A DNA stretch of 64,000 nt, taken from positions 62,001-126,000 of the forward strand of contig CALUYZ010000003.1 in NCBI GenBank assembly GCA_944325175.1. Direction: 5' to 3'. Shown one piece after another: positions 44,647 to 48,797 of this stretch. A program made the translations under genes and the position numbers. Source of the stretch: Candidatus Gastranaerophilales bacterium. Its GTDB lineage: Bacteria; Cyanobacteriota; Vampirovibrionia; Gastranaerophilales; Gastranaerophilaceae. Positions within the stretch are counted from its first letter, which is position 1, and every line of letters starts with the position of its first letter. Under the pieces are notes generated by a model. It had not been told where the DNA came from, did no database searches, and saw nothing but the letters and a program-made list of their open reading frames with translations.

Positions 44647-45039
44647 ATGACTGAAAAATTAAATTTATACAAATGCGATGCTTGCGGCAACATAGTAGAA
44701 GTTGTTATTGAAGGCGAAGGCACTTTAGTTTGCTGCGGTAAAGACATGAAACTTTTGAGGGCAGGCGAATCAGACGGTGCATCCGAAAAGCATGTTCCTG
44801 TTGTTGAGCATATAGGTTCAAGCCATGTTATAAAGGTTGGTTCAATTCCTCATCCAATGGAAAAAGAGCACTACATTCAATTCATAGAAGCAATTTCAAA
44901 AGATAAAAGATATGTTAAAAGAAAATATCTTAACCCCAACGAAGAACCCGAAATGATTATTAAATGTTTAGCAGATGATGATTTCACGGCAGAAGAATAT
45001 TGTAATATCCATGGACTTTTTGAATGTAAGGGGGAATAA
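44647..45039 (+). CDS. dfx: Superoxide reductase (desulfoferrodoxin, 2Fe class)
   Basis: Reduces superoxide to peroxide without making oxygen, the anaerobe's alternative to superoxide dismutase. 130 residues. N-terminal desulforedoxin centre I cysteines C10, C13, C29 and C30 are intact, as are centre II ligands H49, H69, H75, C119 and H122 and the E47-K48 loop. AAAGGAGGG precedes the ATG. The ferritin gene is 2 bases downstream. Confidence 0.96.
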   Translation: MTEKLNLYKCDACGNIVEVVIEGEGTLVCCGKDMKLLRAGESDGASEKHVPVVEHIGSSHVIKVGSIPHPMEKEHYIQFIEAISKDKRYVKRKYLNPNEEPEMIIKCLADDDFTAEEYCNIHGLFECKGE

Positions 45040-45041
45040 TT

Positions 45042-45539
45042 ATGGACAATAAACTTCTTGAAAATCTGAATAAACAATTAAACAAAGAAATGTATTCCGC
45101 TTATCTTTACTTTGCAATGTCCAATTATTTCATAAATATAAATATGGAAGGTTTTGCAAAAGTTGTAAGGCAGCAAGCAAAAGAAGAACTTGACCATGCA
45201 AGAAAAATATACAATTACTTAGTGGCAAGAAACGAACAAATAACTTTAATGCCCATCGATGCACCTGATACAAATTGGATTAATCCGACTGATGCAATAA
45301 AAAATGCACTTTCTCATGAACAATTTATTACCTCTTTATTTAATGAACTTTTTGAACTCGCAAGAAATACTAAAGATTATGCAACGGAAGTATTTTTGCA
45401 ATGGTTTATAGAAGAACAGGTTGAAGAGGAAGACAAATTCAGAACCTTGCTTGAAAAAATGGATAATATCGATAATTGTGATTGTGAAATAATGCACATA
45501 GACAGAAACCTTAAAATAGATAAGGAATATGTTGAATAA
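45042..45539 (+). CDS. ftnA: Ferritin (non-heme)
   Basis: 165 residues. Stores iron by oxidation at a di-iron site; E16, E49, H52 and E-x-x-Q/E pairs in EEQVEEEDKF are visible. The pairing with superoxide reductase makes sense: removal of free iron limits Fenton chemistry. GGGGGAA before the ATG overlaps the end of dfx. A terminator follows. Confidence 0.95.
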   Translation: MDNKLLENLNKQLNKEMYSAYLYFAMSNYFININMEGFAKVVRQQAKEELDHARKIYNYLVARNEQITLMPIDAPDTNWINPTDAIKNALSHEQFITSLFNELFELARNTKDYATEVFLQWFIEEQVEEEDKFRTLLEKMDNIDNCDCEIMHIDRNLKIDKEYVE

Positions 45540-47322: not shown

Positions 47323-48639
47323 ATGACAACGGCTAAAACATCTTTGATTTCATTTTGGCAAGATGACAAAATGTTATCCTGCAAGGGGTGGTTTATTTCT
47401 ATATTGGCATATTGGATAAACTTAAATTTAATTGCAATAACCCTTCTTTCAATAGGCTTTTTTGGCGGTGATGTTTGTAGTTCAAAGTTAGATGACAAAA
47501 TTGTTAAAGTTCAGGCTGCCGCTAAAATTAGTACGGAAATTATCACGGAAGATGAAAAAATAAGCTGGATTGATGCGAAAAATACAAAATATTCAAAATT
47601 TAAAGTAACGTTTCTTGAAGATGGAATTCTATACGCAAAAGGACTTGTTCCTGTCGGCAACAAAAGTGTTAGGGTGAATATTTTGGAAATAAATACAAAA
47701 ATTAACCCAAACCTTGATGTTGAGCCAAAAACAGCATCTTCTTCAAAACTTAATTCAAGAGTAAAAATTCAAAACATTGCATCAAATTCAAATACCATAG
47801 CTGCAGTAAATGGCGGCTATTTTAAACCTCAAACGGGTGTGCCTTTGGGCGCACTTGTTATAAATAATGAAGTTATTACAGGTCCGATATATAATCGTGC
47901 TTCAATTTCAATTAATAATGACGGAACGTATTCTATTGGAAAAAGTGATATAAAATTTTTCCTAAAAAACAGAAAAACAGTTCTTAAAATTGATAATATT
48001 AACCAGCCAAGAATACTTTCCACATATTCAATAATATATACGCAAAGGTGGGGTAAAACAGCGCCAATGCCCCCAAAATACGGAGCAAATGCTCTAATTA
48101 AAAATGGCAAAATTACAGGCATTTATAATGGCACTGTTCAAATACCTGAAGGCGGTTATGTTTTGTCTGCGCCGATAAAAGTAATTCAAGATATTAAAAA
48201 TCAAAGAAATCTTAAACTTGAAGTAAAATACCCAAAATATTTTGAAAACAGCAAACATATTATTTCAGGCGGCCCGTTTTTAATTAAAGACGGAGAAATT
48301 TATATTGATGCAAAAGAAGAAAAACTAACTGCAATAAGCGGAAGAAATCCAAGAACCCTGATTGGTTACACAAAAGATAATGAACTGATTTTGGCAACGG
48401 TTGACGGCAGAGAAAACCGTTCTGTCGGAATGACATTGTATGAATCTGCAAAATTTATGCAAAAACTGGGTTGTATAAATGCAATAAATTTAGATGGCGG
48501 TTCATCAAGCGTTATGTATCTTAAAGGGCAAATTGCAAACAAGCCGCCAATTATGGGTGGCATACCGCTTTCAGGCATAGTGTCCATAAATTTAAACTAC
48601 CCTGTAATAACTTCTGCAAAAGATTTATCTCAAATGTAA
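47323..48639 (+). CDS. Phosphodiester glycosidase family protein (NAGPA domain)
   Basis: 438 residues. An N-terminal signal anchor (about 25-52) places it in the envelope. The NAGPA/DUF2233 domain follows (about 120-430): AAVNGGYFKPQTGVPLGALV, ISGGPFLIKDGEI, and the C-terminal NLDGGSSSVMYLKG signature. Related enzymes remove N-acetylglucosamine from phosphodiester-linked glycans; in bacteria it is often near exopolysaccharide genes. Here alaS and a GT-C-like protein lie downstream. Confidence 0.9.
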   Translation: MTTAKTSLISFWQDDKMLSCKGWFISILAYWINLNLIAITLLSIGFFGGDVCSSKLDDKIVKVQAAAKISTEIITEDEKISWIDAKNTKYSKFKVTFLEDGILYAKGLVPVGNKSVRVNILEINTKINPNLDVEPKTASSSKLNSRVKIQNIASNSNTIAAVNGGYFKPQTGVPLGALVINNEVITGPIYNRASISINNDGTYSIGKSDIKFFLKNRKTVLKIDNINQPRILSTYSIIYTQRWGKTAPMPPKYGANALIKNGKITGIYNGTVQIPEGGYVLSAPIKVIQDIKNQRNLKLEVKYPKYFENSKHIISGGPFLIKDGEIYIDAKEEKLTAISGRNPRTLIGYTKDNELILATVDGRENRSVGMTLYESAKFMQKLGCINAINLDGGSSSVMYLKGQIANKPPIMGGIPLSGIVSINLNYPVITSAKDLSQM

Positions 48640-48663
48640 AGAAAATTAAAATATAATTTTTAT

Positions 48664-48797
48664 ATATGTTATATATATTTTTCGTGTGGAATATTATAAG
48701 TGGTTAGTTCTTCTCTTTTCCACTCCTTCCTCCATTATATACGAAATTTCAGGCGGACACCCGAGCTTTTAGGTTTGGCGACCGCCTTCTTTTTTGT
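48664..48797 (+). ncRNA. Candidate structured small RNA or alaS leader
   Basis: Between the glycosidase and alaS. TTTCGT (48680-48685) pairs with ACGAAA (48741-48746), and immediately inside, GTGGAA (48686-48691) pairs with TTCCAC (48718-48723). The 17-base bulge on the 3' side contains TCCTTCCTCC. A terminator (48751-48797) ends it. TATAAT at 48652-48657 could start it. The inner terminator stem relies on G-U pairs, so it folds better on the plus strand. No Rfam family recognised. Confidence 0.5.
48751..48797 (+). terminator. Terminator upstream of alaS
   Basis: AGGCGG (48751-48756) pairs with CCGCCT (48782-48787); CCGAGC and GTTTGG form an inner stem with G-U pairs. CTTTTTT follows. Confidence 0.75.

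Follow-up and report, generated by a model that had tools for sequence, protein, structure and literature searches.

The window, the whole 64,000-nucleotide stretch of Candidatus Gastranaerophilales DNA analyzed here, contains a gap between genes for a phosphodiester glycosidase and alanyl-tRNA synthetase (alaS). The gap raises the question of whether it encodes an RNA of its own or a leader of alaS, and of what such an RNA would do. An earlier note had proposed a separate small RNA that folds into two stacked stems with an asymmetric bulge, in which a C/U-rich motif lies, followed by a terminator. Judging from its sequence features, positions 48633 to 48795 are a stand-alone small-RNA gene upstream of alaS that has no earlier description. 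That the predicted RNA is distinct from an alaS leader is strongly supported by its conservation, its promoter, and its terminator. We think it reasonably probable that it is a trans-acting small RNA with its own promoter, an RpaB/HLR1-like box, a terminator, and a C/U tract that pairs with purine-rich ribosome-binding sites.

Promoter, predicted transcript, and neighboring genes

On the plus strand, the predicted promoter consists of a -35 element, GTTATA (48668 to 48673), and a -10 element, TGGAAT (48687 to 48692; GGGWAT in its family form), separated by 13 nt in the window and by 12 to 14 nt across homologues. The GTT of the -35 element and the GG.A of the -10 element are invariant in 42 sequences. 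In all genera examined, GTT[AT].. is found 12 to 14 nt before the -10 element, which is itself conserved at the DNA level. A promoter of this GTTTAA...GGGWAT (GTTTAA/GGGAAT) type suggests an alternative sigma factor, which perhaps serves transcription of the RNA from this site. With the SigBFG profile, several sigma factors matched, all below the cut-off, so we do not name the factor.

The promoter spacing and the terminator delimit a predicted small RNA of about 97 nt (48699 to 48795, plus strand). Its start, placed from the -10 element, would lie 7 nt after it, a position supported by the 5' hairpins of a sister RNA described below (for example, at L201, L204, and L205), which begin at about the same distance from a -10 element of the same type. 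The minimum-energy fold contains a weak 5' hairpin (48699 to 48724, plus strand) between AGUGG (48699 to 48703) and CCACU (48720 to 48724), with a z score of only -1.0. Its 5 bp are paired in 95.6% of cells in the genus, without covariation; the hairpin is present in some genera, with 8 bp in g20 and g49 (AAGUGUAG/UUAUACUU), and missing in many others. Transcription would end at an intrinsic terminator (48751 to 48795, plus strand), in which AGGCGG and CCGCCT enclose an inner stem and precede a U tract. As the earlier note had claimed, a terminator is indeed present here, and it is a strong one that beats its shuffled versions (z = -3.4; 0 of 200 shuffles). Every homologue has a plus-strand terminator of variable sequence, and the predicted transcripts of the homologues, mostly 63 to 100 nt long, are largely bare C/U-rich single strand plus this terminator.

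The two stacked stems drawn in the earlier note are contradicted by the homologues. Their strings are where the note had placed them (TTTCGT, 48680 to 48685; GTGGAA, 48686 to 48691; TTCCAC, 48718 to 48723; and ACGAAA, 48741 to 48746), as is the intervening 17-nt stretch, UCCUUCCUCCAUUAUAU (48724 to 48740). Of the 5' arms, the outer one, TTTCGT, corresponds to the end of the promoter spacer and is not conserved, and the inner one, GTGGAA, corresponds to the -10 element. When covariance was checked across nine genomes of the genus, 50% of cells were paired in the outer stem and 98%, without covariation, in the inner stem; since the letters of the inner stem are nearly invariant, they provide no test of pairing. 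The 67 nt that contain the claimed stems do fold better than shuffled sequences (z = -2.5), into a predicted structure that differs from the one drawn. We rejected the bulged two-stem structure because its outer stem is paired in only half of the cells and its 5' arms lie inside the promoter.

If the RNA were a 5' leader or attenuator of alaS, its place in the window and at L006 and L009 would be accounted for, since alaS lies downstream on the same strand at these three loci, with the terminator between. Among genomes of the genus, this arrangement is confined to these three; at L002 to L005, L007, and L008, as in other genera, various other genes follow, mostly convergent and not all annotated, yet both the RNA and its promoter persist. 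Neither a T-box nor any other Rfam leader matched. The different downstream genes contradict a leader, which we regard as highly improbable, and the closeness to alaS is incidental. Across loci, the nearest downstream frame is convergent in 31 of the 48 that have such a frame, a mechanical count of frames of at least 70 codons rather than of curated genes. The RNA gene is intergenic, has its own promoter and terminator, and is kept independently of its neighbors, as expected of a trans-acting small RNA, and in this respect the earlier proposal of a separate RNA holds.

Short reading frames on both strands in most copies could instead point to a small protein encoded on either strand, but these frames and their peptides, such as MEEGVEKRRTNHL on the minus strand, are not common to different genera, the promoter and terminator are found on the plus strand only, and no reading frame conserved across genera was found on either strand. 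We therefore rejected a small protein, to which we give hardly any probability.

Distribution of the RNA and a sister RNA

A DNA search found the element at 89 to 97% identity in all 8 of the 8 other genomes of the genus, with differing flanks. In 5 of the 8, the match ends at the terminator, where the sequence differs and still forms a terminator. A sequence-only model built from eleven copies (R1) picked up the element in further genera. A second sequence model (R2), for which 42 diverse copies were used, had matches at E ≤ 0.05 in 267 of the 287 genomes of the order Gastranaerophilales. R2 matches of about 1e-5 or better, many of them between 1e-8 and 1e-16, all fall within one GTDB family of the order, and the two models place the element in nearly all genera of that family. 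R2 also finds it in g8, g11, g14, g15, g16, and g23, genera outside the R2 training set. Two R2 matches in f6 are the sister RNA; the remaining weak R2 matches in other families seem to be due to chance, as do the weak BLAST hits L012 to L015, which lack the promoter-terminator plan. An exact scan of named genomes for the RNA core returned 48 stretches, the titles of which were all Gastranaerophilales, Galligastranaerophilus, Melainabacteria, "Cyanobacteria bacterium," or uncultured bacterium. Some genomes have the RNA gene twice: in G273 (L063; G273:C59) the two copies are in tandem, and in G176 (L083 and L084; G176:C1) they are separated by about 8 kb and are identical over the stretches compared.

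No Rfam family matches the window RNA, as the earlier note had anticipated, and we found no published regulatory small RNA for Melainabacteria or Gastranaerophilales in the literature searched. Identity with 6S RNA was rejected because RF00013 has no match in the window, and the 6S candidates seen in other genomes of the order are at different places. RF00013 finds no 6S RNA in nine genomes of genus g1 (G000 to G008), and most of their relatives have a candidate; in this genus, 6S RNA has been lost or has diverged too far for the model.

The R2 hit L149 pointed to another C/U-rich RNA, the sister RNA, which has the core UCUCUCUAAUUCCUCUCUCUAAUAUGUGGUA and a terminator. It was matched in 36 of 56 relatives, in families f1 to f7, among them the window's own genome (L194; G000:C6:12557-12605, minus strand). 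Other copies are at L178 to L189 and L195 to L206, often with a 5' hairpin. Its promoter plan is the same as that of the window RNA, GTTTAA N13-14 GGGAAT, with similar TGTAA repeats in some loci. No Rfam family matches the sister RNA, and a model of it (R3), applied to a sample of 291 genomes from the phylum, the composition of which is only partly listed, matched nothing beyond the order. The sister RNA is conserved more widely, across the order, than the window RNA, which is conserved across the family.

The C/U-rich tract and its candidate targets

The C/U motif of the earlier note is present. An unpaired C/U-rich tract, UUCUUCUCUUUUCCACUCCUUCCUCC (48708 to 48733, plus strand), is invariant in nine genomes of the genus and has related C/U cores in all other genera, including UUCUCUUUUCCACUCCUUCCUCC, CUUUCUCUUCCACUCCUUUUCUCC, and UUUAUUUUCUCCUACACAC. 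The tract is a candidate anti-Shine-Dalgarno seed, and its binding to GGAGG-like sites is plausible. By pairing with the purine-rich ribosome-binding sites of several mRNAs, a long unpaired tract of this kind (CUCC, ACUCCUU, and CCUCC) would lower their translation, as with Yfr1 and other C/U-rich RNAs. Because the tract contains the anti-Shine-Dalgarno-like CUCC and ACUCCUU and 33 of the 55 genes in the window have a recognizable Shine-Dalgarno site, pairing with start regions would be the simplest reading.

Duplex energies between the tract and start regions in the window (-9.07) were no better than those of composition-shuffled tracts (-9.13), and for this reason we claim no target. The adjoining genes for ferritin (45042) and desulfoferrodoxin (44647), at 44647 to 45539 of the window, have strong purine-rich ribosome-binding sites; both score well in the duplex screen but do not exceed the shuffled controls. 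A whole-genome target hunt with GGAGGAAGGAG found one start region, the other sites looking like coding sequence. This start region (L207; G000:C4:45293, minus strand) belongs to a small gene directly after a terminase-like frame, in what looks like a prophage, and its ribosome site, GUAGGAAGGAG, is complementary to the window RNA seed in 10 of 11 letters. No conserved target was found in these searches. The Hfq profile PF17209 found no Hfq in 29 Gastranaerophilales genomes; as it also fails on Synechococcus elongatus, these bacteria may still have a divergent Hfq.

Both the energies, no better than those of shuffled tracts, and the Hfq result would also suit a real RNA in which the C/U tract binds or sequesters an RNA-binding protein (ribosomal protein S1 or a protein of the RRM, KH, or cold-shock type), as would the length and bareness of a tract that varies in exact sequence among genera yet remains C/U-rich. 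A loose pyrimidine site, however, would need neither the invariance of the tract within the genus nor the recurrence of CUCC and ACUCCUU across genera, and we judge a protein site to be unlikely. A base-pairing small RNA remains our preferred reading.

Candidate RpaB box and relation to known small RNAs

Upstream of the -35 element lies an HLR1-like direct repeat with a degenerate second half, AATGTAAA-GA-AAATTAAA (48633 to 48650, plus strand), a candidate RpaB box through which RpaB would control transcription. HLR1 is KTTACAWW-N2-KTTACAWW, and activation by RpaB is reported for positions -45 to -66 (PMC13421787), a range that takes in the box, which spans about -66 to -49 relative to the predicted start. 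Perfect forms of the repeat, such as ATTGTAAATATATGTAAA at L068, are the reverse complement of HLR1 and lie at the same distance from the inferred start. Upstream of the -35 element, TGTAA repeats with a period of 10 had a mean best score of 7.91, compared to 6.88 for shuffled sequences (standard deviation, 0.10). With this period, 15 loci scored at least 9 and 9 were perfect; no other period gave more than 4 and 0, respectively. These counts are not independent, since the loci are related. The repeats usually begin 32 to 34 nt before the -35 element, a spacing seen in many genera. Several genera have an intact repeat at the activating distance, as at L068 and L071, and g22 and g52 have none; in the window's genus, RpaB control is less certain because the second half-box is degenerate there. 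Of the three OmpR-type regulators that the genome encodes, one (L214:1486-2232, minus strand) scores above the RpaB equivalog cut-off (363.5 versus 330 bits; NCBIfam), and rpaA, rpaB, and nblS were already known in Gastranaerophilales (PMC4040986). PsrR1 of Synechocystis is likewise a small RNA in the RpaB regulon (PMC13421787), as proposed for the window RNA, a likeness drawn without comparison of the RNA sequences. Compared to PsrR1, the HLR1-like repeat here is upstream of the -35 element, the reported position for activation, and in a non-photosynthetic lineage.

Yfr1 is defined by ACUCCUCACAC between two stem-loops and usually lies beside guaB and trxA (PMC2190773). Like Yfr1 (PMC2190773, PMC6778093, PMC6974561), the window RNA has the plan of a short, abundant-type small RNA, with an optional 5' hairpin, an unpaired C/U motif with CUCCU, and a Rho-independent terminator, a GC-rich 3' hairpin with a U tail, and each RNA is near-universal in its own lineage. 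The window RNA differs in its longer C/U tract, in its predicted length (63 to 100 nt, compared to 54 to 69 nt), and in its 5' stem, which has 5 bp rather than the 6 to 10 bp of Yfr1 (8 bp in g20 and g49). Descent of the window RNA from a Yfr1 present in the common ancestor of Cyanobacteriota, with later divergence, would fit the shared phylum, the similar order of parts (a 5' hairpin in some genera, an unpaired CUCC-containing tract, and a terminator), and the presence in several genera of CUCCUACACAC, which can be compared to the Yfr1 motif. The ultraconserved unpaired motif itself, however, is absent from the window RNA and its homologues, and the 11-nt sequence occurs in 2 of 56 Gastranaerophilales genomes, where a reversed control is no rarer. 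In addition, the flanks in the loci looked at are alaS and other genes rather than guaB or trxA, many homologues lack the 5' hairpin, and convergence readily yields short C/U motifs. We consider such descent quite unlikely and reject identity with true Yfr1, as its defining motif is no more frequent than the reversed control; given the absent motif and the different setting, we do not file the window RNA as Yfr1. By analogy, our preferred small RNA would work like Yfr1 without the motif that defines it. Without its bulged fold, the earlier reading stands: a small RNA in its own right, comparable to Yfr1, whose C/U motif is unpaired and resembles an anti-Shine-Dalgarno sequence.

C/U-rich anti-Shine-Dalgarno small RNAs also occur in other phyla. 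Rhizobial NfeR1-type RNAs with CCUCCUCCC (PMC10746234) have an unpaired CCUCC-type seed and proposed pairing with ribosome sites, likewise proposed here. They act in Hfq-containing bacteria, whereas no Hfq was found here, and they are not known to be linked to the window RNA by sequence or phylogeny.

It is conceivable, although we lean against it, that in Gastranaerophilales RpaB controls a group of two or more C/U-rich anti-Shine-Dalgarno RNAs, to which the family-wide window RNA and the order-wide sister RNA belong and in which one alternative-sigma promoter plan is shared. In this non-photosynthetic lineage, such a group would correspond to the Yfr1 and RpaB-PsrR1 circuits of photosynthetic cyanobacteria, and it may be the form that those circuits had in the common ancestor. 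A concrete promoter, predicted transcript, and candidate seed are now available for searches of existing gut metatranscriptomes, and it becomes possible to test how old C/U-rich regulation of the Yfr1 type is in the phylum. If this family-wide small RNA is under RpaB control, it hints at a role for a photosynthesis regulator in non-photosynthetic gut relatives.
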